A stretch of DNA of 64,000 nucleotides, from positions 1-64,000 of IMG/VR virus record IMGVR_UViG_3300047510_003167; one strand, 5' to 3'. The position numbers and the translations under genes were made by a program. Origin of the DNA: a virus. Below the pieces are notes generated by a model. The model was not told the origin of the DNA. It searched no databases and saw only the letters and a list, made by a program, of their open reading frames with translations. Positions 7,113-60,415 of the stretch are shown piece by piece; position 1 is the stretch's first letter; every line of letters begins with the position of its first letter.

Positions 7113-7276
7113 TGTCTAAAAACAAAATGCCAGCTGAACTTCTTGCTCACTTCAAGAAGAAAGAAGCCAAGAACGAAGATGGCTCTGAAATGAGCGACAA
7201 TGAAAAAAGGAAAGCTGCATTAGATAAAGCACGTAAATATCAAGATCAAAAAAAGAAAAAGCCTGAAGAAAAATAA
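7112..7276 (+). CDS. Small Lys-rich phage protein (54 aa)
   Basis: A 54-residue charged protein beginning 'MSKNKMPAELLAHFKKKEA' and followed by an acidic 'EMSDNEKRKAALDKARK' helix. I recall short proteins of this pattern ('PA-LL-FK-KEAK', 'MSDNEK') being widespread near phage terminase genes, with unknown function. Start overlaps the end of the previous gene by one base. Confidence 0.75.
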   Translation: MSKNKMPAELLAHFKKKEAKNEDGSEMSDNEKRKAALDKARKYQDQKKKKPEEK

Positions 7277-7278
7277 GT

Positions 7279-7306
7279 TAGTATTCAGTAACGTTCTGAA
7301 TAACTA
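7279..7306 (+). promoter_or_regulatory. Stem-loop directly before the terL start codon
   Basis: TATTCAG (7282-7288) pairs perfectly with CTGAATA (7296-7302) around a 7-base loop. TAG/CTA extends the stem after a bulged A. The stem ends two bases before the GTG start at 7309 and there is no Shine-Dalgarno. Confidence 0.6.
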
Positions 7307-7308
7307 CC

Positions 7309-8835
7309 GTGCCTTCTTATCAGCACCTTGCGTATCGACGCAATGCCCGTGCAGCGGCGCGTAATCAGATTCTTAAACAACCTAAAAATCTTGCGGATCT
7401 TCAACGCGCTAGAGAAGATTTTGGTTTCTTTTGTGAGTTTGTAGCAGATAAGCCCCCAGCTAAACATCACCAGGAATGGAACCGACATTTTGTTACGGGC
7501 GAAGATAGTACTTGTTTAATTAAAATTGCTGGTCCCAACATTGACCTATTAGCTCCCCGTGGCTCAGCTAAAAGCACAGTACTTGGTTTGTTAACTGCAT
7601 GGGCAATTGGTGTGCATACAGAAGCTAAGTTGCCTTTACAAATTTTGTACTTGTCGTACACCGTTGATATTGCAAGATCTAAGTCGGCAACCATTAAACG
7701 AATCATTGAAAGCAAACGCTATCAAGAAGTATTTCCAACGGTACGCCTTTTAAAAAACGTAACCAGTAATGAGTATTGGTCTATTGATCATAAATTTGCT
7801 GGAATTGATGTTACTGGTGATGAACAATTCACTCTCTGCGCGGCAGGCTTGAAAGGTTCCGTGACTTCAAAACGTTCTCACCTCGTCATGATTGATGACG
7901 CTATTAAATCAGCTGCTGATATTGCAAACCCTGACATCAGGAAAATGATGCAGGACAACTGGAACGCAGTGATCGCACCCACCATGTTTGAAGGAGCCAG
8001 GGCTATTTGCCTGGGTACTCGTTTCAGGCATGATGACATTCACGCAACAACTTTCAACGAACAAAACAATTGGATGCAAATTATTCTTTCTGCAATCATT
8101 AATGATCCTGTTACAGGTGAAGAAGAGTCTTATTGGCCAGATATGTGGTCACTCGAATATTTAAAAGAAAAGAAACGACAAGCACCCATTGCTTTTTCTT
8201 TTCAGTACATGAATCAAATCATCAGGCAAAACGAACTTTCGCTTGCGCCTGAACTTATTGTTAAAGCCGAAATTGCTACTGAATTTGATACGTTAGGGAT
8301 TGGAGTTGATTTGTCGGCAGGCGTCAAAGAAAAGAATGACTACACCGTAATGGTTCTTGGCGGACGAATTGAAGATCGCATTCATATTATTGATTACAGA
8401 CGTATCCGCGTCATGGGTAATCTTGAAAAATTAGATGCCATGAAAGAACTGCTTAACGACTGGTCTATTCTTGGAAAAGATGACAACGGTAATTATTTCC
8501 CAACTTATTCAACGTGTGATATTTGGTCTGAAGCTGTACAGTATCAGGCTTCCCTGGAAGCAGACTTTAAACGAGTTTGTTTAAATGATGAAGGTTTATA
8601 CAATTTGCTCTGGCATCCAGTCAAAGGATTCAGAGCAGATAAGTTAGCTCGTTTCAGGGGAATTATTGGTATGTTTGAAGATCGCAAAATTATTTTTAAT
8701 CGATATCGTAATTTTACAAATATGTTTGAAGAGTTGACTAACTTTGGTGTCAGCAGTCATGACGACACGGTTGACGCGTTAGTATGGTTGGTAACAGGCC
8801 TTATGCGAAAAGGACAACTCCATCTTGATTATTAA
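7309..8835 (+). CDS. terL: Terminase large subunit
   Basis: The ATP-driven packaging motor and headful/end-generating nuclease of the phage, acting at the portal vertex. The 508-residue length is usual for TerL. The ATPase domain shows a Walker A 'PRGSAKST' (83-90), Walker B 'VMIDD' (193-197) and a coupling motif 'LGTR' (235-238). The RNase H-like nuclease domain shows 'GVDLSAG' (332-338) and a C-terminal 'HDDTVDA' (484-490) supplying metal-binding Asp residues. The start is GTG at 7309, immediately behind a stem-loop and without a Shine-Dalgarno. The portal gene follows after three small genes. Confidence 0.95.
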   Translation: MPSYQHLAYRRNARAAARNQILKQPKNLADLQRAREDFGFFCEFVADKPPAKHHQEWNRHFVTGEDSTCLIKIAGPNIDLLAPRGSAKSTVLGLLTAWAIGVHTEAKLPLQILYLSYTVDIARSKSATIKRIIESKRYQEVFPTVRLLKNVTSNEYWSIDHKFAGIDVTGDEQFTLCAAGLKGSVTSKRSHLVMIDDAIKSAADIANPDIRKMMQDNWNAVIAPTMFEGARAICLGTRFRHDDIHATTFNEQNNWMQIILSAIINDPVTGEEESYWPDMWSLEYLKEKKRQAPIAFSFQYMNQIIRQNELSLAPELIVKAEIATEFDTLGIGVDLSAGVKEKNDYTVMVLGGRIEDRIHIIDYRRIRVMGNLEKLDAMKELLNDWSILGKDDNGNYFPTYSTCDIWSEAVQYQASLEADFKRVCLNDEGLYNLLWHPVKGFRADKLARFRGIIGMFEDRKIIFNRYRNFTNMFEELTNFGVSSHDDTVDALVWLVTGLMRKGQLHLDY

Positions 8836-15122: not shown

Positions 15123-15132
15123 TTGAGGTAAA

Positions 15133-15159
15133 CTAAGACCAGATAACTTCTGGTCTTAG
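15133..15159 (+). promoter_or_regulatory. Perfect 10-bp stem-loop one base before a start codon
   Basis: CTAAGACCAG and CTGGTCTTAG form a perfect inverted repeat around ATAACTT, ending one base before ATG 15161. No T-run follows on the plus strand, so it is not a classical terminator. The TAAACT at 15129-15134 overlaps it and could be a -10 box, making the repeat an operator alternative. Confidence 0.65.
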
Positions 15160-15160
15160 C

Positions 15161-15574
15161 ATGCTCCTTTATCAACACAAAAAAACTGGCGCACGCGTCA
15201 AAATTGTAAGCGAATGGGATAACGGCGATTGGTTCATGGTCGAAGATCAGGACGGTCGCCTTTATACCGCTTACAAAAACGAATTGACTCCTGATGAGCA
15301 AGCAACCAAAAAGGTTCAAACTCTCCAGGTAAAAGATAAAGCAGCAAAAGAAGAGCCTCGCACGTTTCCTCCTGAAACGCGCTTGAACATTAATACGGCA
15401 ACTGCTCAAATGATTGCCGATCACATCAAGGGCATTGGTTTAAAAACCGCTCGTGAAGTGAAGGATTTACAGATGTCTCTGTCGGGTGAAAGATTCGCGA
15501 ATCTAGAGCAGTTAAAACAAATCAAGAGGGTTGATTGGGAAGCTGTTATTGCAGCAGATTTAATCCGTGTTTGA
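15161..15574 (+). CDS. Helix-hairpin-helix protein, possible head-tail adaptor (137 aa)
   Basis: The N-terminal ~45 residues form a small beta barrel-like domain ('GARVKIVSEWDNGDWFMV'). Residues ~72-137 match the ComEA-type helix-hairpin-helix pattern ('LNINTATAQMIADHIKGIG'), a non-sequence-specific DNA-binding motif. Its position among head-completion genes suggests contact with packaged DNA at the portal. The start has no Shine-Dalgarno and abuts the stem-loop at 15133-15159. A terminator follows the gene. Confidence 0.7.
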   Translation: MLLYQHKKTGARVKIVSEWDNGDWFMVEDQDGRLYTAYKNELTPDEQATKKVQTLQVKDKAAKEEPRTFPPETRLNINTATAQMIADHIKGIGLKTAREVKDLQMSLSGERFANLEQLKQIKRVDWEAVIAADLIRV

Positions 15575-31050: not shown

Positions 31051-31080
31051 TGTATATTGGGGATAGCAATAGTTATCCCC
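31051..31080 (+). promoter_or_regulatory. Extended -10 promoter and 5'-terminal hairpin abutting the GH24 start
   Basis: TGTATATT (31051-31058) is an extended -10 box. The stem GGGGATA/TATCCCC (31059-31080, loop GCAATAGT) begins at the -10 edge and ends directly at ATG 31081, so the transcript could begin with this hairpin. An alternative TATTG/CAATA pairing competes with it. There is no Shine-Dalgarno. Confidence 0.55.
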
Positions 31081-31740
31081 ATGGCTGATTTCAGCTGCGC
31101 ACTTAACCTCATTCGTAAGTATGAAGGTTTTAACGAAAAGGCGTACGCCGATCCGCTTACTGGTGGAGAACCTTACACCATTGGATTTGGCACTCAGTTT
31201 TACCCTGACGGCTCTCCGGTAAAGCGGGGACAATGCTGTACAAAAGAAAAAGCACTGGAATATTTGTTTCACGAAGTTCAAGTCATTGACTCACAACTTC
31301 AAAAACTCAACATGGGGCTTGATGACTCCATGCGTCAAGCATTAATTTCTTTTGTTCACTCTGTAGGCTGGGAGCCTTTTCTTTACAGCGGAGTCATTGA
31401 TGCCGTTGATTGCGAAGATTGGGCGATGGCCGCACAGGAAATTAACCGCTGGATCTTCAATGAGGAACATAAAGTCATTGGTGGTTTATTGGATCGTCGC
31501 AGGGATGAATCAAATCTCTTTCTCCTGGAAGTAGACGCCAACCCCTGGGTGTCAACTGAAATTCTTCTGACTGCCTTCAGGAATTATTCAGCTGCTCCTC
31601 ATCAAGTGCGAGCCATTCGTGTCTTGGAAGAAAAAATCAATCCTTACGTGTTGTCAGAATTTGCCAACGATTACCGCATTGACGATAATCCGTGGATTGA
31701 ATACCCCAGCGAAGAGCTTGACTCTTTATTTAATGTGTAG
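31081..31740 (+). CDS. GH24 lysozyme (T4-type muramidase)
   Basis: Hydrolyses the MurNAc-GlcNAc bond of peptidoglycan. The catalytic triad of T4 lysozyme is visible as Glu15 ('KYEGF'), Asp24 ('YADP') and Thr33 ('YTIGFGT'), with 'ALISFVHSVGWEPF' as the typical central helix. The ~145-residue catalytic domain is followed by an acidic, helical C-terminal extension to 219 residues with no signal peptide. ATG 31081 is preferred over a TTG at 31036, which would translate the promoter and hairpin. It is the second of three clear murein hydrolases here. Confidence 0.88.
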   Translation: MADFSCALNLIRKYEGFNEKAYADPLTGGEPYTIGFGTQFYPDGSPVKRGQCCTKEKALEYLFHEVQVIDSQLQKLNMGLDDSMRQALISFVHSVGWEPFLYSGVIDAVDCEDWAMAAQEINRWIFNEEHKVIGGLLDRRRDESNLFLLEVDANPWVSTEILLTAFRNYSAAPHQVRAIRVLEEKINPYVLSEFANDYRIDDNPWIEYPSEELDSLFNV

Positions 31741-42973: not shown

Positions 42974-43029
42974 TAGGTATTACTCTCTAAATTTCCCTGG
43001 TAGAATACAAAAAACTTAATTGATGAATT

Positions 43030-43350
43030 ATGGCTGACACTTACACTTGGGGTATTGCCAATCTGGAACGTCACGTTTCTGATGGCGCTGTTTATACCGC
43101 TCATTGGACCCTTAATGCAGAGCGTGTTACTGGTGGAGAACTTTACACCGCCAGCTCCTATGGTTCCGTTGGTTTCTCTGATCCTGATCCGGATGACTTT
43201 ACGCCGTACGAAGATTTGACTTCTAGCCAAGTTATTGGTTGGGTTCAAGATGCTCTTGGTGCCGATAAAGTAGTTGAAATGGAAGACTCGTTAAGCAGCC
43301 GCCTGGATGATGAGGTAACCCCTACCAGCGAATCCGGTATTCCTTGGTAA
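43030..43350 (+). CDS. Small phage protein, possible tail-fibre associated (106 aa)
   Basis: Begins 'MADTYTWGIANLERHVSDGAVYTAHW' with a beta-hairpin character, an acidic 'DPDPDDFTPYEDLTSSQVIGWV' region and a helical C-terminus. I recall the form 'TY-W-I--L-R---DG-V---HW' as a conserved small phage protein with unknown function. A TAGAAT box lies at 43001. Confidence 0.7.
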   Translation: MADTYTWGIANLERHVSDGAVYTAHWTLNAERVTGGELYTASSYGSVGFSDPDPDDFTPYEDLTSSQVIGWVQDALGADKVVEMEDSLSSRLDDEVTPTSESGIPW

Positions 43351-43355
43351 ATAAT

Positions 43356-43364
43356 TGCTATACT
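43356..43364 (+). promoter_or_regulatory. Candidate extended -10 promoter (TGCTATACT)
   Basis: TG-C-TATACT, 22 bases before ATG 43386. It would drive a 63-residue gene and the lysin behind it. Confidence 0.5.
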
Positions 43365-43385: not shown

Positions 43386-43577
43386 ATGGCTTGCAAGAAA
43401 AGCGAACTGGTTTCTGCCATTAATTCTTTTGGCTCTGCCCGTGCATCTGGCGATGGTAATTTGATTGCTTTTGCCGCTAACCTTATCGGTTCTCTTGTTG
43501 AAACCCTTGAGTTTGAACCTGAAGCAGAAGAAGGAACGATTGAAGTTAAGGACGCTGAAGTTGTTGAAGAAGGTTGA
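43386..43577 (+). CDS. Small acidic phage protein (63 aa)
   Basis: A 63-residue protein with a helical N-terminus and a Glu-rich C-terminus. It directly precedes the structured lysin leader. Its ATG is preceded by no clear Shine-Dalgarno. No family recognised. Confidence 0.6.
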   Translation: MACKKSELVSAINSFGSARASGDGNLIAFAANLIGSLVETLEFEPEAEEGTIEVKDAEVVEEG

Positions 43578-43578
43578 A

Positions 43579-43619
43579 TTAGTACACCTGACCTAAAGTT
43601 GTACTAACAGCTTTAGGTC
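43579..43619 (+). promoter_or_regulatory. Pseudoknot-capable leader of the two-domain lysin gene
   Basis: Two perfect stems interlock. TTAGTAC (43579-43585) pairs with GTACTAA (43601-43607), and GACCTAAAG (43590-43598) pairs with CTTTAGGTC (43611-43619). The connecting loops are 4, 2 and 3 bases. The second stem ends one base before ATG 43621 and there is no Shine-Dalgarno. The stems either coexist as an H-type pseudoknot or are mutually exclusive hairpins. Confidence 0.65.
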
Positions 43620-43620
43620 G

Positions 43621-44733
43621 ATGACTATAAAACTGACTGACGCAGCAAAGTTCTATAAAGAACTTCAACATCAAAAGGATGCTTGGAATTGGCTCCAGGG
43701 TCAGGTGCCTCCTGAAACCCTGGAGTCTTTTAGCGTCAAATATCGCAGCGAACCAAAACCCAGCGAAGAATATCCCAATACCTGGGACGGTGTTTTAGCT
43801 GCAGGGAAAGCAATGGGTGCTAAGTATCCAGAATGTGTTGCAGCGCAGTGGGCCCTGGAAAGTGGTTGGGGTAAACATACGAGCGGTAAACACAATTACT
43901 TTGGTTTAAAGGGGTCTGGCACATCAACCACAACACAAGAGTTTATTAATGGTCAGTGGATTACAATCACCGCTGACTTTATTGATTTTCCTGACCTATC
44001 TACGTGTGTTGATTATCTTGTATCGCGCTGGTACAAAGACTACAAAACTTACAAAGGTGTAAATCGAGCAACCAGTCGAAATAACTGTGCAGAACTTTTA
44101 GTTCAAGAAGGTTATGCAACGGATCCAGACTATGCAACAAAATTAATTCAAATTATGGACAAACAACTCCAAACTCCTGGAGGTGATTCCACTGCAGTTA
44201 CGTCTTCTAAAACCCTTACCGTTCCTTACTTTTATCAACTAGACAATCAATCAGGCACTGGTTATCGCGAGTGTTTTTCTTCTTCTTGTGCAATGATTGC
44301 CGCTTATTACGGCAAAGTAAAAACAGATGATGAATACAACAAAATTAGGGCTAAATATGGTGACACTACAGATGCAAATGCGCAGCTAAAAACACTGCAA
44401 GCCCTGGGACTTAACGCCAAATTTATTACCAACGGTAATTCTGCTTTATTAGAAAACGAGATTCGTAATAACAGACCTGTTGCTGTTGGTTGGTTACATC
44501 AAGGAAATGTAAGTGCTCCCACAGGCGGCGGTCATTGGACTTGTTGTATTGGTTTCACAGAAACTGAATTTGTACACAACGACTCAAATGGGGAAGCGAA
44601 TATGGTCAATGGAGGGTACGTAAGCAATGCAGCATCCCGCGGAAAAGGTGTCAAATACAGTAAAAAGAATTGGTTACCACGTTGGGAGTGCGACGGTAAA
44701 AACACAGGTTGGGCAATTTTAGTTTCTAAATGA
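43621..44733 (+). CDS. Two-domain endolysin: glucosaminidase plus C39-like peptidase
   Basis: Residues ~50-185 match the FlgJ/GH73 glucosaminidase pattern ('AAQWALESGWGKHTSGKHNYFGLKG', catalytic Glu80). Residues ~198-370 match a C39-like papain-fold peptidase: 'QLDNQSGTGYRECFSSSCAM' with nucleophile Cys219, 'GGGHWTCCIGF' with His305, and 'VHND' with Asp321. The first would cut the glycan strand and the second a peptide bond, so the product can open the wall at two points. No signal peptide. The next small gene overlaps by four bases, and a holin candidate converges from the minus strand. Confidence 0.88.
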   Translation: MTIKLTDAAKFYKELQHQKDAWNWLQGQVPPETLESFSVKYRSEPKPSEEYPNTWDGVLAAGKAMGAKYPECVAAQWALESGWGKHTSGKHNYFGLKGSGTSTTTQEFINGQWITITADFIDFPDLSTCVDYLVSRWYKDYKTYKGVNRATSRNNCAELLVQEGYATDPDYATKLIQIMDKQLQTPGGDSTAVTSSKTLTVPYFYQLDNQSGTGYRECFSSSCAMIAAYYGKVKTDDEYNKIRAKYGDTTDANAQLKTLQALGLNAKFITNGNSALLENEIRNNRPVAVGWLHQGNVSAPTGGGHWTCCIGFTETEFVHNDSNGEANMVNGGYVSNAASRGKGVKYSKKNWLPRWECDGKNTGWAILVSK

Positions 44734-47243: not shown

Positions 47244-47297
47244 TACCACCAGGGCTTGGCTATGGGTCAATCCTGGCACGAGTGAGTGCAGACTTTC

Positions 47298-47398
47298 AGA
47301 CTTTGGGGGCCTTTTTAAAAACTTTCCCTAGAAAGGCGACAAGATTGCCAAAGTTGTCGCCTTCTTAGAAGGGTTTTATAAAAGGGACCCCAAAGTCT
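47298..47398. repeat. 101-base imperfect inverted repeat (possible MITE-like element or large RNA hairpin)
   Basis: AGACTTTGGGG (47298-47308) pairs perfectly with CCCCAAAGTCT (47388-47398). Inside, CCTTTTTAAAAAC pairs with GTTTTATAAAAGG in 11 of 13 positions. The core AAGGCGACAA (47333-47342) pairs perfectly with TTGTCGCCTT (47354-47363). Confidence 0.75.
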
Positions 47399-47402
47399 GC
47401 AA

Positions 47403-47531
47403 TCTCTGCACCAACATTTGAGTCTCACCTTAAGACCCCTTCCCCTGCAAAGGATCTCATTTCAATACAAGTAAGACTCACTTCAAACTCTGCACGATCT
47501 CTGCACCAACAAATGAGTCTCACTTTAAGAC
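47403..47531. repeat. Direct repeats in the 47280-47585 gap
   Basis: Two 34-base copies (47403-47436 and 47498-47531) differ at three positions. Partial copies of GACTCACTTCAA and CTCTGCAC lie between. With the inverted repeat, this fills a 306-base gap that has no gene. Confidence 0.8.
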
Positions 47532-47542
47532 AACATCCCAAC

Positions 47543-60401: not shown

Positions 60402-60415
60402 TATAGAATACATTC

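Follow-up and report, generated by a model that had tools for sequence, protein, structure and literature searches.

A conserved hairpin flush with the endolysin start codon overlaps a predicted promoter in S-EIVl-like Synechococcus phages

The window analysed here covers 64 kb from the start of a virus record of 72,471 bases and carries an endolysin gene (the lysin, 43621-44733, + strand). Its 370-aa product has glucosaminidase and C39-like/C70 peptidase domains (PF01832, 1e-20; PF13529, 1.3e-8; phrog_10051, 4e-156) and shares 67% identity with a protein of Synechococcus phage S-EIVl (KJ410740), which originates from a high-arctic lake. Upstream, on the same strand, lie a tail-fibre region and then two small genes. 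The lysin leader extends from the stop codon of the upstream gene (43575-43577) to the ATG at 43621; it holds two overlapping inverted repeats and, as the first-pass annotation had stated, no Shine-Dalgarno sequence. The window also encodes a second endolysin of the Phage_lysozyme type (31081-31740, + strand; PF00959, 1.8e-19; phrog_7, 7e-28) and a 137-aa HHH-motif protein (15161-15574, + strand; PF12836, 1.5e-5, under the curated cut-off). A 23-nt stretch with 96% identity is shared by the second lysin (31157-31179) and a DUF7936 gene (43127-43149; TGGE-YT peptide), and is perhaps the reason why the S-EIVl gene at the matching place is annotated 'lysozyme'. Elsewhere in the window, an intergenic 54-nt inverted repeat with 1-nt spacing (47294-47402) adjoins a 43-nt direct repeat (47402-47539).

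The first-pass annotation had described two perfect interlocking stems of 7 and 9 bp in the lysin leader, ending one base before the ATG. Both stems are present, and they are longer than described: the first (S1) has 8 bp and the second (S2) extends to 14. The 9-bp core of S2 (43590-43619, + strand) pairs 43590-43598 with 43611-43619 and does end one base before the ATG. It is continued by an upper part, 43599-43602 paired with 43607-43610, which consists of a U-G wobble and UGU/ACA and is closed by an ACUA tetraloop (43603-43606). At the base, the wobble U43589-G43620 completes the full-length helix (43589-43620), which is thus flush with the ATG. The folding energy of S2 (ΔG -19.4 kcal/mol) compares with a shuffle mean of -6.2 (z -5.83), none of 200 dinucleotide shuffles folded as well, and in the nested ensemble S2 had a probability of 0.999 and S1 of about 0. 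As no U tract follows S2, the start codon coming next, it is not a classical terminator, and the terminator scan does not list it. Rfam gave no family at or above gathering for the leader (the best chance match, E 4.4, lies elsewhere), and a covariance-model search found no second copy of S2 in the 72-kb record.

Relatives of the leader were collected through related lysins from IMG/VR and by two gene-blind pattern scans, and 56 distinct leaders match the covariance model of S2. In alignment A1 (23 leaders, MAFFT), nine pairs of S2 show double changes, the covariation score is 0.335 against 0.222 in shuffled alignments, with 0 of 500 shuffles reaching S2, and every shifted register in a slid-register control is far worse than the register of S2 itself. 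The 56-leader alignment A4, which was fitted to the model, has 43 double-change cells against 11.4 when shuffled, and the same helix was recovered by MAFFT and RNAalifold from 33 leaders outside the model training, aligned separately (A5). The compared sequences are related and hence non-independent, which the slid-register control and the non-homologous hairpins described below offset only in part. In the gene-blind scans, hairpin-plus-ATG matches preceded lysin homologues in 14 of 14 cases and no other genes, and these lysins include ones with a different C-terminal half and different upstream genes. Across hairpin leaders, 0-4 nt separate the end of the helix from the AUG, and the spacing of the arms differs by several bases among relatives. 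Over four alignments, the stems contain 80 G-U and 17 A-C combinations; since a G-U would read A-C on the opposite strand, the excess of G-U points to selection on the sense-strand RNA. Hence, comparison across relatives shows S2 to be a conserved RNA hairpin in lysin leaders.

The conservation of S2 is not universal. The lysin hairpin of S-EIVl itself is weaker (model score 33 bits), and 37 distinct leaders among the many lysin relatives concerned lack it, a few of them having a weaker or slightly displaced form, which makes the hairpin dispensable for those phages. A Shine-Dalgarno sequence and the hairpin are not clean alternatives, the contrast being weak (1 of 54 hairpin leaders vs 7 of 37 hairpin-less ones). 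Upstream of the lysin in L007 and L008, only the 3′ arm GCTTTAGGT remains and the 5′ side is swapped for other sequence, as if by recombination within the hairpin.

The other stem, S1 (43579-43607, + strand), in which TTAGTACA (43579-43586) would pair with TGTACTAA (43600-43607), is a sequence match and not a conserved structure. Alone it reaches -5.6 kcal/mol, 14 kcal/mol weaker than S2, and it could form only at the expense of the uppermost 4 bp of S2, with a loop of 3 nt having to span 8 bp. Covariation across relatives, which had been proposed as a check of both stems, strongly favours S2 and is absent for S1, of which 45.8% of cells pair in A1 vs a shuffled mean of 49.5%. The close relative L002 keeps TTAGTACA and has lost its pairing partner, and the loop UGUACUAAC persists without the partner in L023, L272 and L300; S1 is found essentially in the window sequence alone.

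When the window was searched for further genes starting at the base of a helix, two held up by comparison. Directly before the second endolysin ATG (31081) lies the hairpin GGGGATAGC-AATA-GTTATCCCC (31059-31080, + strand), in whose alignment (A2) 96.3% of cells are paired and 37 cells carry double changes, against 10.9 in shuffles (0 of 500 reaching this). Before the HHH ATG (15161) lies CTAAGACCAGA-TAACT-TCTGGTCTTAG (15133-15159, + strand), with 98.6% of cells paired in A3 and 16 double-change cells against 3.2 (0 of 500 shuffles). These two hairpins stand 0-1 nt from the ATG in the window and their sequences are unrelated. In addition, a group of marine lysin relatives (L310, L311, L313-L317, L321, L323, L328) carries a non-homologous, longer hairpin of ~18 bp that is flush with a GTG and has TAAAAT in its loop. 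By comparison, then, the layout is preserved across these genes and the sequence is not. Among all genes of S-EIVl, there are three flush hairpins vs 0.85 expected at the threshold used, an excess so small that the device would concern few genes.

The hairpins coincide with hexamers that resemble a -10 element. In the lysin leader, the predicted -10-like hexamer TAAAGT (43594-43599, + strand) lies inside the 5′ arm of S2, 21 nt before the ATG, and reads TARAGT in relatives, where it is found 20-22 nt from the start codon; it is present in all 54 distinct hairpin leaders (TAGAGT in 35, TAAAGT in 12, plus other matches) and in 22 of the 37 hairpin-less ones. From its position, transcription is predicted to start at A43606 (+ strand), 7 nt past the hexamer, which would give a 15-nt leader, AACAGCUUUAGGUCG, without the 5′ arm. 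Before the second endolysin, TATATT (31053-31058, + strand) abuts the hairpin, with a predicted start at A31065 inside the 5′ arm; TATATT or TATGAT occurs in 36 of 37 distinct leaders, 22-23 nt from the start codon. Before the HHH gene, TAAACT (15129-15134, + strand) overlaps the start of the 5′ arm, with a predicted start at A15141, and is present in 34 of 35 distinct leaders, mostly at 23 nt (26 in the window) and at the foot of the arm. The TAAAAT in the loop of the marine hairpin is 22 nt from its start codon. Thus, in all four hairpin types the hexamer ends ~20-26 nt before the start codon, be it inside the arm, beside it or in the loop.

As a promoter element, TARAGT is a modest -10 match, and no recognisable -35 accompanies the predicted lysin promoter; the hexamer could be a different element if the phage has its own late sigma factor. 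Its T, A, A and T are invariant and the pair of its last T stays U-G (UG 46, UA 10, C-G never), which fits a sequence constraint beyond pairing, pairing itself explaining part of the conservation as TARAGT lies within a paired arm. Similar hexamers stand before genes without a hairpin, such as TATACT (43359-43364, + strand), 21 nt before the ATG of the gene upstream of the lysin (43386), and TAGAAT (43001-43006, + strand), 23 nt before the ATG of the gene at 43030. Hexamers of this type are concentrated in S-EIVl at 20-24 nt upstream of annotated starts (26, vs 4.7 per 5-nt bin at greater distances); composition-matched control patterns are also raised there (11 and 14 vs about 5), so A+T content accounts for part of this peak. 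This suggests that these phages often put a promoter ~22 nt before a gene, with leaders of ~15 nt.

Directly 5′ of the lysin hairpin lies a further conserved element, GTACACCT (43582-43589, + strand; RTWSACYT in the family), of which only the last base is paired, in the closing U-G. Its T, A and C are nearly invariant (A1, A5), it stands at the same place in L002-L340, and neither a -10 nor a Shine-Dalgarno element accounts for it. An earlier placement of the lysin promoter in this flank (RTWSACC) was no better than shuffles (median p 0.52) and was replaced by TARAGT. An alternative register of the flank, pairing UUGACCU with AGGUCGA, is possible in some sequences only and was rejected, L290, L331 and L340 having the 3′ arm GGCCAAU with no matching change in the flank (A5).

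Three other start regions are recorded here. The terminase gene was considered as a further case, and its hairpin is weak and inconstant, so it is not claimed; at 7275-7309 and in L421-L500, a box 15-30 nt upstream of the GTG, reading TTAGTATTCAGTAA or nearly so, is strongly conserved and resembles the promoter-like boxes of the hairpin leaders. A TGTATAGT- or GTATACT-like box stands ~21-22 nt before the ATG of a glycosyltransferase gene (48842, - strand) and in L022, L064, L090 and L092, mostly without a hairpin, a flush one being found in L090 and S-EIVl. At 60413 (- strand), a 51-aa reading frame begins 2 nt past a 9-bp hairpin.

From the hairpins, their covariation, their flush position and the position of the hexamers, all of them established by sequence comparison, we consider it probable that in S-EIVl-like Synechococcus phages S2 is a start-codon-occluding hairpin laid over the lysin's own promoter, which silences read-through mRNA in the manner of T4 gene e. 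Read-through transcripts from the upstream tail-fibre genes would carry both arms of S2, and the 14-bp helix ending at the AUG would block entry of the 30S subunit. Polymerase using the promoter with the -10 element TAAAGT would start ~7 nt downstream, at A43606, and the resulting RNA, with its 15-nt leader and without the 5′ arm, would present an open AUG. Synthesis of the lysin would therefore depend on the firing of its own promoter and would not follow from read-through, and the second endolysin and the HHH gene would follow the same design with unrelated sequences. Little or nothing of the 5′ arm would remain in transcripts begun 7 nt past the hexamer, and the modelled median cost of opening positions -12 to +12 drops for the lysin from 17.9 to 5.1 kcal/mol (15.8 to 5.0 for that of the window), for the second lysin from 16.2 to 7.6 and for the HHH gene from 18.4 to 4.5. 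With this lower cost after truncation, read-through RNA should translate poorly and own-promoter RNA freely. Hence, control of lysin translation by a structure in the leader, as the first-pass annotation had supposed, is also our best reading, by a route other than the one it proposed.

The principle is already known from T4-like phages. In T4 gene e, an inhibitory structure in the long early transcripts lowers lysozyme synthesis about 100-fold, and late promoters inside the 5′ strand of this structure give RNA without it (PMC3014915); the same logic applies to I-TevI (PMC2988022) and likewise to soc and 49 (PMC3014915, PMC2988022). Common to gene e and the lysin are a conserved RNA helix at the translation start of long transcripts and the recurrence of similar structures in related phages; a longer transcription unit around the lysis gene and a promoter in the DNA of the 5′ strand, whose short transcripts would lack this strand, are predicted for the lysin. 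However, the gene e structure sequesters the Shine-Dalgarno and/or the AUG and uses the T4 late promoter TATAAATA, whereas the S-EIVl-like lysin has no Shine-Dalgarno, a helix that ends at the AUG and a promoter-like box TAnAnT; unlike in T4, both endolysins of one genome bear hairpins, which are unrelated. As the hexamers found (TARAGT, TATATT/TATGAT, TAAACT, TAAAAT) do not match TATAAATA, the lysin hairpin can be said to work like that of gene e, and not to be a homologous member. A transcript start inside the repeat, which the first-pass annotation had named as refuting its proposal, is what the sequence suggests here; it does not speak against regulation, since the hairpin of gene e works with two classes of transcript, with and without it. 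The transposase leaders of IS10 and IS50 also fold only on read-through mRNA, RNA from their own promoters lacking the hairpin; this is the same logic in a different biology, likened by description and not by sequence.

Of the other explanations, the one that survives best, though unlikely, is that the hairpin aids initiation by bringing the AUG closer to a ribosome-binding site, or to a terminating ribosome, that lies upstream, as in a split site or in translational coupling. In its favour, some 12 nt separate the stem from the upstream stop codon (43575-43577) and several relatives are spaced alike, a purine-rich stretch lies near the stem in HHH leaders, and there is a precedent in T4 genes 25 and 38, whose hairpins also stand directly before the start codon and raise initiation. 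However, these split-ribosome-site hairpins need a Shine-Dalgarno 5′ of the hairpin (PMC3014915), and none is conserved there before either lysin; moreover, the upstream gene and the spacing vary among relatives, and the helix reaches right up to the AUG, the place that the 30S subunit has to occupy. In Aeromonas phage 25, a stable hairpin lies just upstream of the seg43(25) initiation site without sequestering it (PMC2988022); it resembles the lysin hairpin in position and differs in that its ribosome-binding site follows the stem. Somewhat less likely still is an RNA processing or stability element, either a nuclease site or a barrier hairpin, that parts the lysin mRNA from the upstream mRNA and lies before the AUG incidentally. 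A conserved sense-strand intergenic hairpin without a U tract would suit such an element, but the flush position survives sequence change and even replacement by a non-homologous hairpin, and three unrelated hairpins stand at a start codon and over a -10-like box. The overlap of the inverted repeat with the predicted promoter would also be expected of a DNA palindrome serving as the operator through which a protein would govern the lysin promoter; this we regard as improbable, given the excess of G-U over A-C combinations, the variable arm spacing and the wholly different arm sequences between genes. Least credible is the pseudoknot or two-state switch of the first-pass annotation, in which S1 and S2, both perfect in the window sequence, would coexist or compete to set lysin translation: S1 has neither the covariation nor the stability for it, and its halves are kept separately in relatives.

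Whether the silencing of read-through mRNA is a general device of S-EIVl-like cyanophages is evenly balanced in our judgement: it would have been re-invented repeatedly, with promoter-embedded hairpins gating start codons that have no Shine-Dalgarno, and many genes would each be preceded, at 20-24 nt, by a promoter of their own, the two endolysins and a few more being deaf to read-through. Searches of the open-licence literature gave no case of such use on start codons without a Shine-Dalgarno, on both endolysins of one genome and by hairpins that arose separately. The covarying hairpin families can also aid promoter annotation and the correction of start codons. The timing of lysis in cyanophages is poorly known, and the proposed mechanism, if true, would provide a concrete rule for the two lysins of a freshwater phage group that is widespread: read-through RNA would stay silent, and own-promoter RNA would be translated. 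The principle of T4 lysozyme, known from T4-like phages and their genes with a Shine-Dalgarno, would also be extended to unrelated phages without such sites, the non-homologous marine hairpin being evidence of its independent re-invention.
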